Part shown: positions 1,853 to 27,209 of the stretch, piece after piece
Layout of the letters: each line of letters starts with the position of its first letter
How positions within the stretch are numbered: the stretch's first letter is position 1
DNA from: Spirochaeta thermophila DSM 6192
Lineage (GTDB): Bacteria; Spirochaetota; Spirochaetia; Winmispirales; Winmispiraceae
Assembly (NCBI RefSeq): GCF_000147075.1
Contig: NC_014484.1
Span: forward strand, 2,063,501 to 2,127,500
Length of the DNA: 64,000 nt
Direction: 5' to 3'
Notes under the pieces: model-generated
Told to the model about the DNA's origin: nothing
Database searches by the model: none
Seen by the model: only the letters and a program-made list of their open reading frames with translations
Position numbers and translations under genes: made by a program

Positions 1853-1867
1853 TTGTACTAATTACAA
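1853..1867 (+). promoter_or_regulatory. PerR-like operator over the dps start site
   Basis: TTGTACTAATTACAA is a 15-mer with 7-1-7 dyad symmetry (6 of 7 positions) and close to the known PerR consensus TTATAATNATTATAA. It covers the predicted transcription start, so a bound repressor would block dps; peroxide-driven release would induce it. An overlapping dyad TACTAA/TTAGTA (1856-1874) may extend the site. Confidence 0.6.
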
Positions 1868-1899
1868 GTTAGTATAAAATTCAATTTTGGAGGTGCCAC

Positions 1900-2352
1900 A
1901 TGGCTACCGTATCCTATCCCGAAACCGCACGGTTTCTCAACGAGTACCTCGCCGATCTCTCGGTGCTCTACCAGAAACTCAGATCCTTCCACTGGAACGT
2001 GGAGGGCCCGGTCTTCTTCACCCTCCACGCAAAGACCGAGGAGTACTACGACGAGGTCGCCGAGGAGATAGACGAGGTGGCGGAGCGCATCCTCATGATC
2101 GGCTCCAGGCCCGTCTCCACGCTCAAGGAGTACCTCGAGAGGGCATCCCTCAAGGAGGCCCCCGCAAAGGCGTACCGAGCCGAGGAGATCGTGGGACACC
2201 TGGTGCAGGACTTCTCCACCCTGGTGGAGGCCCTGCATCGGGGGATCGCCGTGGCCGAAAAGGAAGGTGACCCGGGCACGGTGGACCTGCTGACCGGATC
2301 GCTCCAGCGCTACGAGAAGGAGCTCTGGATGCTCAAGTCCTTCTCGGCCTGA
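1900..2352 (+). CDS. dps: Dps-family ferritin-like DNA-protection protein
   Basis: A 150-residue four-helix ferritin-like protein. Dps dodecamers oxidise and store Fe(II) with hydrogen peroxide and shield DNA from hydroxyl radicals. The hallmark ferroxidase region FHWNVEGPVFFTLHAKTEEY (~residues 29-48) contains the conserved His, then a downstream acidic helix with DEVAEEIDEVAERIL. The start has a strong TTGGAGG ribosome site 6 nt upstream. It follows the Fur/PerR gene and has a PerR-like box over its own promoter, the classic peroxide-stress arrangement. Length is typical. A hairpin follows the stop codon. Confidence 0.92.
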   Translation: MATVSYPETARFLNEYLADLSVLYQKLRSFHWNVEGPVFFTLHAKTEEYYDEVAEEIDEVAERILMIGSRPVSTLKEYLERASLKEAPAKAYRAEEIVGHLVQDFSTLVEALHRGIAVAEKEGDPGTVDLLTGSLQRYEKELWMLKSFSA

Positions 2353-2367
2353 GATCACCGCAGAAGA

Positions 2368-2395
2368 AGAGAGGGGAGCGTTCGCTCCCCTCTCT
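2368..2395. terminator. Hairpin between convergent dps and sugar-binding-protein genes
   Basis: Perfect 13-bp inverted repeat (AGAGAGGGGAGCG and its complement) with a 2-nt centre. No T-tract on either side, so it may act as a bidirectional terminator with help or as a 3'-end stabiliser. Confidence 0.6.
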
Positions 2396-2416
2396 CTGTA
2401 GTGCATGTACAGGGGC

Positions 2417-4054
2417 CTACTTCCCCTTGTAGCCGTAGAACTGCTCCAGTTTGGCCTTACGCTCGTCGATGATGGCCTGCCCTCCGGAGCTGAGATAATC
2501 CCTCATACCCTGATCGAACACCCTGTCGAAGTCCGACGGCTTGGCGATGACGGACTGGACCAGGAGGTTGTTGCGCTTCTCGGAGAGGGCGGGACCCATC
2601 CCCTCTTCCGCCTTGATCTCTCCCACGTTGAACCGCTTGATCAGGCGAAGATCTTTCGACCAGAGATCGAGGGAGCGCACGATGAACTCGGGCTCCACCT
2701 CGGGATACCCGAGGGCCATGGACTTCCTGGTGATCTCCGGATCGCCGAGATCGAGACCGTTGAGGGTGATGGTGTAGTCGTAGTTGAAGGGGCCGTGCAT
2801 CGCAAGCTCACCCTCGACCTTGAGCATCCGGATGCTCCCATCGGCCAGCACCTCGTGGTGCACGCCCTCCTGTCCGATCTGGAGGAAGCGCCGCTTCGCG
2901 GGATCGCTGATCCAGTTCACGTACAGGAGCGATGCGAGCGGTTCCTTGTTGGAAGCGGGGAAGAAGATCTTGCGGTCAACCGGGATTCCGGAGTACTTCC
3001 TGTACTTGCCGGCGTCGTTCTTGAAGGTGTCGATCGCCACGAACGCCGCATCGGGCCCCACGATCCTCTTCAGGTTCGCGTGGATCGAGTCCTCACCACC
3101 TCGGTAGGGGTAGTCGTGGTTCTGTATGAACGACCCCACGTACCCGGCCTTCGCGAGGTTGTCAGCGGTCGGATCACCCACGGGATAGAGCGGGAAGTCC
3201 TTCCAGATGAGGCCCTCGTTGTACCACTTGTTGAGGAGCCGGATGGCCTCCTTGGTTCCCGGGTGGAGGAGGTTCCTGTCGTCGAATCCATAGATGTAGT
3301 ACTCCTCGTCGGAGATCTTGTCCGGGATGAACGACCAGATGAGGTTCCGCGCATACCAGGCCACGTCCACCGTGAGGAGGAAGGGGATCATCTTGTCCGC
3401 ATCCTTGCCCAGGAGCGTCTCCGCATTGTCGCGGAAGGCCCTGATCGTCCTCTCGAACTCCTGACGGGTCGTGGGTTCCTTGAGACCGAGCTTCTTGAGC
3501 CAGTCCTGGCGGATGAAGGTCACGGTGCCGGTGATCGGCTTACGGATCCCCTCGATGGCCCACAGGGTGCCGGTGACCGGATCCTGATCGAAGTAGATGA
3601 ACTCGTCACCCAGGAGATCCCAGAGAGCCTTCAACTGGGGCTTGTACTGGTCGAGCAGCGGAGCCAGATCCAACACACCACCCATGTTCGCATAGGTCTG
3701 GATGGTGGGATAGTCATAGGTGTAACACACGTCAGGGGCCTCACCCGCAGCGAGCAGGTTGTTGAGCACCTGCACCTCCTGCCAGCGCGGTACGGGCTTG
3801 AAGATCACTTCCACGTTGTGATCCCGGAGCATCCCTTCCTTGATGTAGTCGGTCCAGATGTTGTCGTCGGCGGGGGTACCACCACGATCCCAGATCTCCA
3901 CCGTGATCGTCCGCGTCGTGGTGAACCGGCCGTTCACCAGCTCATCCGTGCCCGCCGTCGGCGCGGCCTTGCCGCCCTTCTCCCCTTGTCCTTCCGCGAA
4001 GGCGAAGGAGACCGCCGTGAGGAGGCACAGAAGCACGATCAATGCCTTTTTCAT
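2417..4054 (-). CDS. Extracellular sugar-binding protein of an LplABC-type ABC importer
   Basis: A 545-residue family-1 solute-binding protein resembling the LplA/YtcQ group that delivers oligosaccharides to two-permease importers. An N-terminal signal peptide (hydrophobic residues ~4-20 ending in FAFA) is followed by a flexible EGQGEKGG stretch; there is no lipobox cysteine, so it is probably periplasmic. A strong AGGAGG ribosome site precedes the ATG. It is the last gene of the permease-permease-binding protein operon. A hairpin and a possible internal promoter in the 59-nt gap upstream could raise its expression. The neighbouring GH2 enzyme suggests a beta-linked oligosaccharide ligand. 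The ATPase is not encoded here, so a shared MsmK-type ATPase encoded elsewhere is likely. Confidence 0.87.
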   Translation of the reverse strand: MKKALIVLLCLLTAVSFAFAEGQGEKGGKAAPTAGTDELVNGRFTTTRTITVEIWDRGGTPADDNIWTDYIKEGMLRDHNVEVIFKPVPRWQEVQVLNNLLAAGEAPDVCYTYDYPTIQTYANMGGVLDLAPLLDQYKPQLKALWDLLGDEFIYFDQDPVTGTLWAIEGIRKPITGTVTFIRQDWLKKLGLKEPTTRQEFERTIRAFRDNAETLLGKDADKMIPFLLTVDVAWYARNLIWSFIPDKISDEEYYIYGFDDRNLLHPGTKEAIRLLNKWYNEGLIWKDFPLYPVGDPTADNLAKAGYVGSFIQNHDYPYRGGEDSIHANLKRIVGPDAAFVAIDTFKNDAGKYRKYSGIPVDRKIFFPASNKEPLASLLYVNWISDPAKRRFLQIGQEGVHHEVLADGSIRMLKVEGELAMHGPFNYDYTITLNGLDLGDPEITRKSMALGYPEVEPEFIVRSLDLWSKDLRLIKRFNVGEIKAEEGMGPALSEKRNNLLVQSVIAKPSDFDRVFDQGMRDYLSSGGQAIIDERKAKLEQFYGYKGK

Positions 4055-4081
4055 GGTATCCTCCTATATAAGATGATATAA

Positions 4082-13190: not shown

Positions 13191-13219
13191 AGGTTAGTGC
13201 GAAGGTTTCCTCATGTCAA
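13191..13219 (-). promoter_or_regulatory. Promoter giving a 1-nt leader for the AroF-PheA fusion
   Basis: TTGACA (13214-13219), 17-bp spacer, TAACCT (13191-13196) on the minus strand. Predicted start 13184 is one base before the ATG. The promoter lies within the 3' coding end of the upstream transglycosylase gene. The -10 is only a 3 of 6 match. Confidence 0.5.
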
Positions 13220-13940
13220 CCGGCTGGAGTCTCCCCACCTCGGTCTTGAAGAAACGTTCGAGATCGGTGGGGCGAATCACAGAGGAGAGATAGGAGAAGA
13301 ACTCCTTTTCGAGGCGCGTTCTATAGGCGAAGAACTTGTCGATGTACCGCAACGTCATGGCCGGGGCCCCTCTGGTGAAGACCCGATGTTTCCCCGCATT
13401 GTACATCGCCAGGGCCAGGACCTCGCTCCCCCCCTCTTCCAGACAGTACTTGAGGTAGGAGATCCCATAGCGGGCATTGATCTCGGGATCGAAGAACTCC
13501 TCCTCGGTGAGGAAGGGGAAGGTGCGGGAATTGAGCTGGAAGAGCCCCCTGTCCACCGACGAGGGATTCTCGTTCACGGCGAAGGGATAGAACTCGCTCT
13601 CCACATAGGCGAGGGAGAACGCAAGGAAAAGGGGGACGTCGAACTTGTCGGCATACCGGAGGATCGGAAGCGCCACCTCCGGGTCGCCGGTCAGGTTGAT
13701 GAAGAAGTCTTCCACCAGAGGTCGGGTGAGCTCCTCCCGGTAGAGGAAGAGCGCCGGCGCTCTCTCCTCATGGGCCTCCTCCAGGAGCGAGAGGATCACC
13801 GGCCTATCCTCCGGGGAAACCACATCCCTCTGAGGGAGCGGCATCCATTCCCCTGGAGACTGGACATAGGGAACCTCGGTACAACTCAAGAGCAGAATCC
13901 CTCCCCCAAGCACCATCCAACGCAAGAGTATCTGTCTCAT
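13194..13940 (-). CDS. SLT-type lytic transglycosylase lipoprotein
   Basis: A 248-residue peptidoglycan-cleaving enzyme anchored as a lipoprotein: the signal sequence ends at the lipobox LLLSC (Cys ~20). The transglycosylase domain (~90-200) shows the catalytic Glu in YVESEFYPFA, the second motif SSVDRGLFQLNSRTF and the third motif MYNAGKHRV, which together define the lysozyme-like SLT fold. The N-terminal ~75 residues after the lipobox are not recognised. A GGAGAGG stretch lies upstream of the ATG at a long spacing. It is followed 10 bp later by the AroF-PheA gene, whose promoter is inside its 3' end, so the two need not be co-regulated. Likely role: cell-wall turnover or insertion of envelope machinery. 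Confidence 0.87.
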   Translation of the reverse strand: MRQILLRWMVLGGGILLLSCTEVPYVQSPGEWMPLPQRDVVSPEDRPVILSLLEEAHEERAPALFLYREELTRPLVEDFFINLTGDPEVALPILRYADKFDVPLFLAFSLAYVESEFYPFAVNENPSSVDRGLFQLNSRTFPFLTEEEFFDPEINARYGISYLKYCLEEGGSEVLALAMYNAGKHRVFTRGAPAMTLRYIDKFFAYRTRLEKEFFSYLSSVIRPTDLERFFKTEVGRLQPVDMRKPSH

Positions 13941-14342
13941 TGTTCTGCATCCTCTCCCTGCGTGTCATCCGGGGTGATCGTGTCACACAGCACACACTGC
14001 AATCGAACGTTTTGCACTGTTAAAGATACTAAAAGCGGCCGTGAGGTAAAGCGAGTATGCCCCTATTCCCCGAAAAGATCAAGCATGGAGATTCTGGAGA
14101 TATGAGAGATTTTAAAGATTTTTGCAGAGGACGTTTCGGCCTGAGGGAGAGAAGGAGCCCGCATCCCGCGGGCTCACATCCGGTTTACACACCATTCATG
14201 GAGGAAGGTCTCTCCTATTAACGGCCGCCCTGAAGAAAACTTGACGAAAAATCATCCCGGACGCCCCTCTCCACCTGTCGGACATCCCGACGGGCCCACC
14301 TCCCGGGGCGACGAATTTACACTGGCGGTATCACGAAGCACA
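13941..14342. other. Intergenic region between transglycosylase and xylanase genes
   Basis: No gene found. It contains a hairpin GAGCCCGC/GCGGGCTC (14155-14175, 5-nt loop) with no T-tract, and A/T-richer stretches at ~14010-14125 that probably hold the divergent transglycosylase promoter; no clear -35/-10 pair was found there. Confidence 0.4.
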
Positions 14343-14372
14343 TGGTATAATGCCTTTATAAAGGCATTATAC
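14343..14372 (+). promoter_or_regulatory. Xylanase promoter inside a perfect 28-bp palindrome
   Basis: The interval 14345-14372 is a perfect palindrome: half-site GTATAATGCCTTTA followed by its exact complement. It embeds an extended -10 (TG at 14343-14344, TATAAT at 14346-14351) and the predicted start (~14358) falls at its centre, so a dimeric repressor bound here would shut the promoter. No good -35 is present, consistent with reliance on the extended -10 or an activator. Confidence 0.7.
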
Positions 14373-14391
14373 TTAAATCGGGAGAAAAACG

Positions 14392-15435
14392 ATGAAAACC
14401 GCACGATCCATCTTCTTCCTGGGGCTGGCGGCCCTGGTCCTCTTCACCTCGTGTCAGCCGGGGACCATGCGTGGACTGGCCGACAGACGGGACTTCCTCT
14501 TCGGAGTGGCCGTCGCCTCCACCGATCTCCTCGACCCCACGGCATCGAAGATCCTGCAAGAGAACTTCAACCTCCTGGTGGCGGAGAACATCATGAAGCT
14601 CCAGTATCTCCGCCCGAGCCCCACGCTCTGGAACTGGCGCCCTGTCGACGACCTCGTGAACTTCGCGAAAGAGCACAGGATGAAGCTCAGGGGTCACACC
14701 TTTCTCTGGCACAACCAGAACCCGCCCTTCATCAACAGACTGGGCAGGAACGACAGAGATCGGGCCATCACGATCCTCGAGGAGACCATCACCGGCGTCC
14801 TCACCCGCTACAAAGGAGTCTTCTACGAGTACGACGTGTGCAACGAAGTGATAGACGATGAGGGAAGATTCCGGGAGAACTCCCCGTGGTACCGGGCCAT
14901 CGGCCCAGAATACATAGACATGGCCTTCCACACGGCCCGCAAGGCGGATCCGAACGTGAAGCTCATCCTCAACGACTACAACAATGAGTACAAGGGAACG
15001 ATCAAGGGGGACGCCTTCTACACCCTGGTGAAGGGCATGGTGGAACGAGGGGTGCCGATCGACGGCGTGGGTTTCCAGCTCCACCTCATGGCCGAACACC
15101 CGCTGAACGAGGAGGCCCTCCGGGCGAACATCCAGAGGTTCAGGGAACTCGGCCTCTCCGTCTCCTTCACCGAGGTGGACGTCCGCATCAAGCTCCCCGT
15201 CACCCCCGAGAAAGAAGCCGCCCAGAAGGCGATCTACGAGAGCCTCCTCAGGATCGCCCTCGAGGAGGACGTGTCCTGCTTCGTCATGTGGGGATACACC
15301 GACGCCAACAGCTGGATCCCCGGGAGTTTCCCCGGCTACGGCAGCGCCCACATCTTCGACGAAAAGCTCACTCCCAAACCGGTGTACTTCGCCATGCAGG
15401 AGATCCTGAAATCGTACCACCCCGACAGGAACTAG
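14392..15435 (+). CDS. GH10 endo-1,4-beta-xylanase lipoprotein
   Basis: A 347-residue secreted xylan-degrading enzyme of glycoside hydrolase family 10. A lipoprotein signal ends in LFTSC (Cys21), so the enzyme is probably tethered to the outer membrane or periplasmic side. The single (alpha/beta)8 catalytic domain fills the rest of the protein: conserved GHTFLWHNQ (101-109), acid/base E152 in DVCNEVIDD, nucleophile E261 in FTEVDVRI, and the substrate motif NDYNNEY (~194-200). No carbohydrate-binding module is attached. The ribosome site GGGAG is 8 nt from the ATG. Control by a dedicated repressor is likely because a perfect palindrome covers the promoter. It stands alone, ~5 kb from the GH2 and importer locus. 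Confidence 0.93.
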   Translation: MKTARSIFFLGLAALVLFTSCQPGTMRGLADRRDFLFGVAVASTDLLDPTASKILQENFNLLVAENIMKLQYLRPSPTLWNWRPVDDLVNFAKEHRMKLRGHTFLWHNQNPPFINRLGRNDRDRAITILEETITGVLTRYKGVFYEYDVCNEVIDDEGRFRENSPWYRAIGPEYIDMAFHTARKADPNVKLILNDYNNEYKGTIKGDAFYTLVKGMVERGVPIDGVGFQLHLMAEHPLNEEALRANIQRFRELGLSVSFTEVDVRIKLPVTPEKEAAQKAIYESLLRIALEEDVSCFVMWGYTDANSWIPGSFPGYGSAHIFDEKLTPKPVYFAMQEILKSYHPDRN

Positions 15436-18278: not shown

Positions 18279-18932
18279 ATGACCAGCAGGAACACGTCCG
18301 CCCAACCCGAACCCCAGTTCAAGGTGCACGATCACGTGGTTTACCCACTCCAGGGAGTGGGTGAGGTGGTACGGATCGAGGAAAGGGAGTTCAAGGGAGA
18401 GGGACTCCTCTACTACGTGATCTACATCCCGGTCTCCGACATGACGGTGATGGTTCCTGTCCACAAGGCCGCGGAGATAGGCATCAGACCCATCGTATCC
18501 AGGGAGGAAGCTCTCGAAGCCCTCGACTTCATCTCCGAGAACCCCCAGGCAGGCCCCACCGACTGGAAGACCCGCTACCAGATGAACCTGGATCTCCTCA
18601 AGAAGGGAAGCGTGATGGACATCGCCCGCGTGGTCCGGGCCCTCTACTACCGAAGCAAGATAAAGGAGCTGCCCATCCTGGAACGCAAGCTCTTCGACAA
18701 CGCCCTCCGCATTCTGGTGGACGAGATATCCTTTGCCCTCGAGATCTCCGCGAAAGAAGTGGAGGCCCGCATCTTCCAGCAACTCGAACAGGAGAGCGAG
18801 CCCCTCGAGGAAGAAGAAGAGGACCTATTCGAGGAAGAGGACGAAGATCTGAATTTCGAAGAAGACGAGGAAGAGGACGGGGACGACATGGAGGACGCAG
18901 ACCTGGACGAAGAGGACGATTCCGAGGAATGA
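18279..18932 (+). CDS. carD: CarD/CdnL-family RNA polymerase-binding regulator with acidic tail
   Basis: A 217-residue transcription regulator. Residues ~14-70 form the Tudor-like RNA polymerase interaction domain (VHDHVVYPLQGVGEVVRIEE), which contacts the beta subunit. Residues ~75-170 are the helical DNA-binding domain (DWKTRYQMNLDLLKKGS, ALYYRSKIKELPILERKLFD), which stabilises open promoter complexes in characterised homologues. Unusually, the last ~45 residues are almost entirely Asp and Glu. It overlaps ispD by 4 bp (ATGA), and ispD overlaps ispF the same way, so translation is coupled; mycobacteria show the same gene order. The leader is predicted to be only 3 nt. A perfect 8-bp hairpin lies inside the coding region at 18343-18362. 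Confidence 0.92.
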   Translation: MTSRNTSAQPEPQFKVHDHVVYPLQGVGEVVRIEEREFKGEGLLYYVIYIPVSDMTVMVPVHKAAEIGIRPIVSREEALEALDFISENPQAGPTDWKTRYQMNLDLLKKGSVMDIARVVRALYYRSKIKELPILERKLFDNALRILVDEISFALEISAKEVEARIFQQLEQESEPLEEEEEDLFEEEDEDLNFEEDEEEDGDDMEDADLDEEDDSEE

Positions 18933-27185: not shown

Positions 27186-27209
27186 AAAGGGGGGCTCGAG
27201 CCCCCCTTT
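27186..27209 (-). terminator. Attenuator-like hairpin between livJ and livH
   Basis: A perfect 24-bp palindrome: AAAGGGGGGCTC and its exact complement, so the stem ends in TTT. Placed after the binding-protein gene and before the permeases, it should act as a partial terminator or processing/stability element. Confidence 0.7.

Follow-up and report, generated by a model that had tools for sequence, protein, structure and literature searches.

A perfect palindrome lies on the apparent promoter of a GH10 glycoside hydrolase gene in the 64-kb window (the whole stretch of DNA that was analyzed), which raises the question of whether the symmetry marks a regulatory binding site or was acquired by the promoter without being kept as one. 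A preliminary description of this DNA took the first view, proposing that the palindrome marks a strong operator at which a regulator of xylan use binds. The features needed to follow the argument are given below, with positions counted from the first base of the window.

13194–13940, minus strand: divergent SLT-domain (lytic transglycosylase-like) gene (PF01464)
14343–14351, plus strand: extended -10 element TGG-TATAAT, TGGTATAAT, assigned from sequence; a rare motif, unchanged in the sister species
14345–14358, no strand assigned: left arm of the palindrome, GTATAATGCCTTTA, which includes the -10; 0/14 differences from the sister species
14358–14359, plus strand: symmetry centre and predicted transcription start, placed by distance to the -10
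14359–14372, no strand assigned: right arm of the palindrome, TAAAGGCATTATAC; 2/14 differences from the sister species
14380–14384, plus strand: Shine-Dalgarno-like GGGAG (AGGAG in the sister species)
14392–15435, plus strand: GH10 glycoside hydrolase (endo-xylanase family; PF00331, 300.6 bits, 1.6e-89) with a lipoprotein-type signal peptide, the lipobox being read from the sequence

The palindrome occupies 14345–14372, where GTATAATGCCTTTA is followed directly by TAAAGGCATTATAC, so that two perfect arms of 14 bp meet with zero spacer (28 bp); as read in the window the whole element is GTATAATGCCTTTATAAAGGCATTATAC. The preliminary description had reported a perfect 28-bp palindrome, which does exist, although the interval quoted for it (14343–14372) is 30 bp long and takes in, at its start, the TG that belongs to the extended -10. 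Its placement of the element across the -10 and centred on the predicted +1 is fair as a prediction, the symmetry centre (14358/14359) falling 7–8 nt past TATAAT (14346–14351).

Chance expectation was calculated from base composition, and perfect palindromes were counted in a background sample of 464 kb, made up of the 64-kb window and twenty 20-kb stretches (400 kb) of the same genome. About 6e-4 such palindromes were expected per 64 kb and about 0.02 per genome (2,472,645 bp). The palindrome at the GH10 promoter was the longest perfect one in the 464 kb, followed by arms of 12 and 11 bp (24 and 22 bp in all, both GC-rich, the 24-bp one intergenic), and in block-wise dinucleotide shuffles the arms of perfect palindromes were never longer than 11 bp. 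The perfect form is therefore not a plain random-sequence accident, and the earlier judgement that chance occurrence is very unlikely is borne out. Other symmetric elements were seen in the window. A 24-bp perfect palindrome, AAAGGGGGGCTCGAGCCCCCCTTT (27186–27209), occupies the spacer that separates a branched-chain-amino-acid-type binding-protein gene from the gene of its permease (both minus strand) and is probably an intercistronic hairpin. A near-perfect 28-bp palindrome, AGAGAGGGGAGCGTTCGCTCCCCTCTCT (13/14), was found at 2368–2395, near the 5' ends of ORFs 1858–2406 (minus strand) and 2405–4081 (plus strand).

The sequence at 14343–14351 matches TGnTATAAT, the pattern of an extended -10 sigma-70 promoter, and the ATG of the GH10 gene (14392) lies 41 nt past the last base of the -10. 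Genome-wide, the extended -10 TGNTATAAT occurred 17 times, against 7 occurrences of a reversed-pattern control, and the other occurrences were mostly directly 5' of plausible genes, often with TTGACA approximately 17 nt upstream. No good -35 was found at the GH10 promoter. In the sister genus (G002), TATAAT also precedes the start codon of the GH10 orthologue, and the palindrome is absent. Because TGNTATAAT is rare, stands mostly at plausible promoters and is unchanged in the sister species, the extended -10 promoter in front of the GH10 gene is probably real.

Upstream, the divergent SLT gene starts >400 bp from the palindrome. The other neighbours encode a GH2 enzyme, a DAHP synthase/prephenate dehydratase fusion, a receiver-only protein, an oligopeptide-type solute-binding protein (SBP5) and a VTT-domain protein. 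A domain scan gave no DNA-binding (HTH) regulator among the examined neighbour genes or the other window ORFs scanned, in agreement with the earlier statement that no regulator gene is adjacent. The TetR-type HTH nearest to the palindrome is approximately 14 kb off, just beyond the window, and the genome as a whole holds nine TetR_N matches and seven LacI matches. The sole transcription-related neighbour is a CarD-family gene (18279–18932), which adjoins ispD- and ispF-like genes; proteins of the CarD type bind RNA polymerase, not an operator. A GC-rich inverted repeat, GAGCCCGCATCCCGCGGGCTC (14155–14175), lies in the divergent intergenic region between the SLT and GH10 genes and is identical in the sister species. 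Among the open-access papers found, none describes regulation in Spirochaeta/Winmispira thermophila.

An operator of the regulon type recurs at co-regulated genes, and recurrence was not found in any of the searches made. With 20 dyad positions and at most 3 mismatches, the whole 2.47-Mb genome gave only the GH10 site. The 14-bp half-site (at most 2 mismatches) was found elsewhere in the genome only inside two unrelated coding sequences, and the 16-bp core (at most 3 mismatches) gave 3 matches against 4 for the control, hence nothing above control. The outer TATAAT mirror, at several spacings, likewise gave nothing above control. When the 464 kb were scored over all 28 positions (threshold ≥17/28), the best other score was 18, and shuffled-arm controls reached 19. 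Beyond this genome, the dyad was absent from the 296 others of the class (297 searched, self only), and viral contigs held no copy. The GH10 orthologues of Treponema/Gracilinema MAGs (67–68% identity) have different upstream DNA, in which the palindrome is absent. The preliminary description had suggested looking for the dyad upstream of other glycoside hydrolase genes; it did not recur there, and the promoters of the four other GH10 genes of the genome carry no related dyad. That description would have given up the operator if the palindrome recurred at no carbohydrate gene and xylanase expression became constitutive after its mutation; the first, computational half of this is what was observed.

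Conservation was assessed against the sister species G001, which is 97.8% identical over 18 kb (2.2% divergence). The left (-10) arm showed no differences at its 14 positions. The right arm differed at two of 14 (14365, C/T, and 14370, T/A), both changes breaking the symmetry, and the remaining GH10 leader differed at 4/19. Taken together, 14359–14391 form a local cluster of divergence (6/33 against the 2.2% background, P = 7e-5) that includes GGGAG versus AGGAG and is among the densest in the 18 kb compared. Because 6 of 33 positions differ where 2.2% is the background, the right arm appears to evolve like leader and not like the -10. The two half-sites were thus not both conserved more than their flanks, the right arm being changed at 2/14 in a region of 2.2% divergence. 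As the right arm is not alignable in the sister genus (G002), which is the closest outgroup, or in the Treponema/Gracilinema orthologues, the change is not polarized. If the perfect form is ancestral, G001 has lost the symmetry, and this would argue equally against tight constraint in G001.

Dyads at other promoters of the same genome provide a comparison. At locus L091 (G000:C1:1755300-1756400, minus strand), TGGTATAAT at 1755851–1755859 is followed by a LacI/CRE-like dyad, ATGCAAGCGATTGCAT, situated in front of a CBM48-domain gene, with an alpha-amylase-like lipoprotein gene diverging on the other side; the -10 and the first 15 dyad bases are the same in G001, and the surrounding leader differs by approximately 20%. 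At L086 (G000:C1:1496200-1497300, minus strand), a CBM4/9 lipoprotein gene has a TTGACA / TGGTATAAT promoter, after which comes the dyad CGATAACATGTTAACG, fully kept in G001 amid 79% identity. At L090 (G000:C1:1645000-1646500, minus strand), a LacI-family gene has an extended -10 promoter, after which comes the dyad ATGAAAGCACTTTCAT, a possible autoregulatory site, and a GH10 gene lies approximately 4 kb away. These LacI-type dyads follow the same type of promoter as the GH10 palindrome and are similarly placed relative to the -10, but they are 14–16 bp long, whereas the GH10 palindrome is 28 bp and lacks their CG centre. They also differ from it in conservation: the L091 and L086 dyads persist in the sister species although the DNA around them has diverged, and the right arm of the GH10 palindrome is not conserved there. 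In ATGCAAGCGATTGCAT and CGATAACATGTTAACG together, 31/32 bases are kept in G001 (the sole change is the outermost base of ATGCAAGCGATTGCAT), with flanks and leaders approximately 20% diverged. On this comparison of sequences, the L091 dyad appears the better operator candidate. The conservation at L091 and L086 may be how a constrained operator looks in this genome pair, a look that the GH10 palindrome does not have, and the contrast is suggestive only.

The account narrowly favoured, and held tentatively, is that the promoter is real and that the symmetric right arm is incidental, not kept as a binding site. The left arm would be the functional extended -10 (TGGTATAAT) of a sigma-70-type promoter predicted to drive the GH10 gene from a start close to the symmetry centre, and a cognate regulator would presumably be absent. 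An AT-rich promoter and leader would already have formed an imperfect inverted repeat (for example 12/14, as in G001), a template-switch (quasi-palindrome) correction would have made it perfect in this lineage, the presumed direction being from a G001-like form to the perfect one, and the right arm would now be evolving as ordinary 5' leader. Inverted repeats with imperfect arms are hotspots of mutation, where template switching by the polymerase raises the complementarity between the arms (PMC7202029). Like the products of such correction, the GH10 palindrome has an imperfect and a perfect version in a pair of relatives and changes clustered in one arm (PMC7202029), but the direction of change is not proven here. 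In the relative G001 the imperfect version is 12/14 and both differences are symmetry changes; they fall inside a 6-nt stretch of a single arm, which is what one correction event would be expected to produce. Quasi-palindromes of at least 12/14 numbered approximately 2.5 per 464 kb in shuffles (approximately 13 per genome), and 10 were observed at exactly 12/14 in the 464-kb sample. Three points tell against incidental symmetry. It would still take a coincidence to place a perfect palindrome exactly on a promoter without selection. A 12/14 match may serve well as an operator, and most real operators are imperfect. The contrast between the right arm and the control dyads is drawn from a small number of bases (2/14 against 1/32); in this small sample 2/14 against 0/32 gave P = 0.09, and the contrast with 1/32 is weaker.

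A repressor operator is the closest competitor and is itself plausible enough to be kept in play, at somewhat lower probability. A dimer or dimer pair (TetR/QacR-like, covering 28 bp from approximately -13 to +15), encoded elsewhere, would block RNA polymerase until an inducer such as a xylo-oligosaccharide was present. Its perfect two-fold symmetry is far above chance, a position over the -10/+1 is the classic repressor location, the nine TetR_N and seven LacI matches are at hand in the genome, and LacI-like dyads stand directly after TGGTATAAT at the CBM48/alpha-amylase locus, the CBM4/9 gene and the LacI-family gene. As in QacR/TetR-type systems, a long palindrome overlaps the promoter and start; a regulator gene is not adjacent, the TetR_N matches lying elsewhere, and qacR adjoins qacA. 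As a precedent, QacR binds a 28-bp perfect palindrome at the start site, the region concerned running from -6 to +21 (PMC9210681). This operator (IR1; Staphylococcus, TetR family) shares with the GH10 palindrome its length, perfection, overlap with the start and AT-rich outer arms (PMC9210681), but there is no sequence similarity beyond composition, and the GH10 site also covers the -10 and has no regulator gene beside it. Among spirochaetes, promoter and operator overlap at TroR of T. pallidum (PMC2628430), likewise a dyad on a sigma-70-type promoter; the TroR operator differs in being 18 bp, of other sequence and devoted to metal regulation, with the regulator in the same operon. Against an operator, the site is unique, and no regulator has another copy in front of its own gene. 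No regulator gene was found among the examined neighbours (the nearest TetR match being approximately 14 kb away), the sister species does not conserve the right arm, and orthologues lack the dyad. What stands of the proposed strong operator for xylan use is its location on an apparent promoter core before a GH10 gene and a symmetry beyond chance; the proposal itself is unproven, and is weakened because the dyad does not recur and its right arm is not conserved while the L091 and L086 dyads are. A more specific version is doubtful. In it, an unlinked repressor devoted to this one site in the genome would bind the 28-bp palindrome as a dimer pair and gate one surface-anchored GH10 enzyme, forming a xylan switch for a single gene that is distinct from the LacI-type dyads of the other carbohydrate promoters.

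It is improbable that the palindrome acts as RNA, being transcribed from an unseen upstream promoter into a 12-bp hairpin before the ribosome site that stabilizes the mRNA or modulates translation. A transcript of the whole palindrome does fold well (-18.1 kcal/mol, z = -6.5), but the palindrome itself holds the only convincing promoter element; an mRNA made from that element would begin at the centre, include just one half of the palindrome and lose the stem (-3.1 kcal/mol, z = -0.8). The stem also drops to -10.0 in the sister species, with no compensation, and neither an Rfam family nor a terminator-type T tract was found. An intrinsic terminator or Rfam RNA was rejected separately, there being no GC-rich stem with a T tract and no family match. 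A mirror promoter is very improbable. In it, the inverted TATAAT of the right arm (14371–14366, minus strand) would start transcription in the opposite direction, in competition with the GH10 promoter. Symmetry does put TATAAT on both strands, but the minus-strand -10 lacks a TG extension and a recognizable -35, the substitution at 14370 changes it in the sister species, and the divergent SLT gene starts >400 bp away.

The preference for a real promoter with incidental symmetry over an operator is thus slight, and the meaning of the site depends on which of the two holds. If it is an operator, it would offer an entry point to the control of one of the xylanases of a cellulose- and xylan-degrading thermophilic spirochaete. 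If it is a mutational product, it would be a caution that perfect symmetry at a promoter, even where a random string would hardly produce it, is weak evidence for an operator if the two half-sites are not both conserved. Better operator candidates, with conservation footprints, are present in the same genome.
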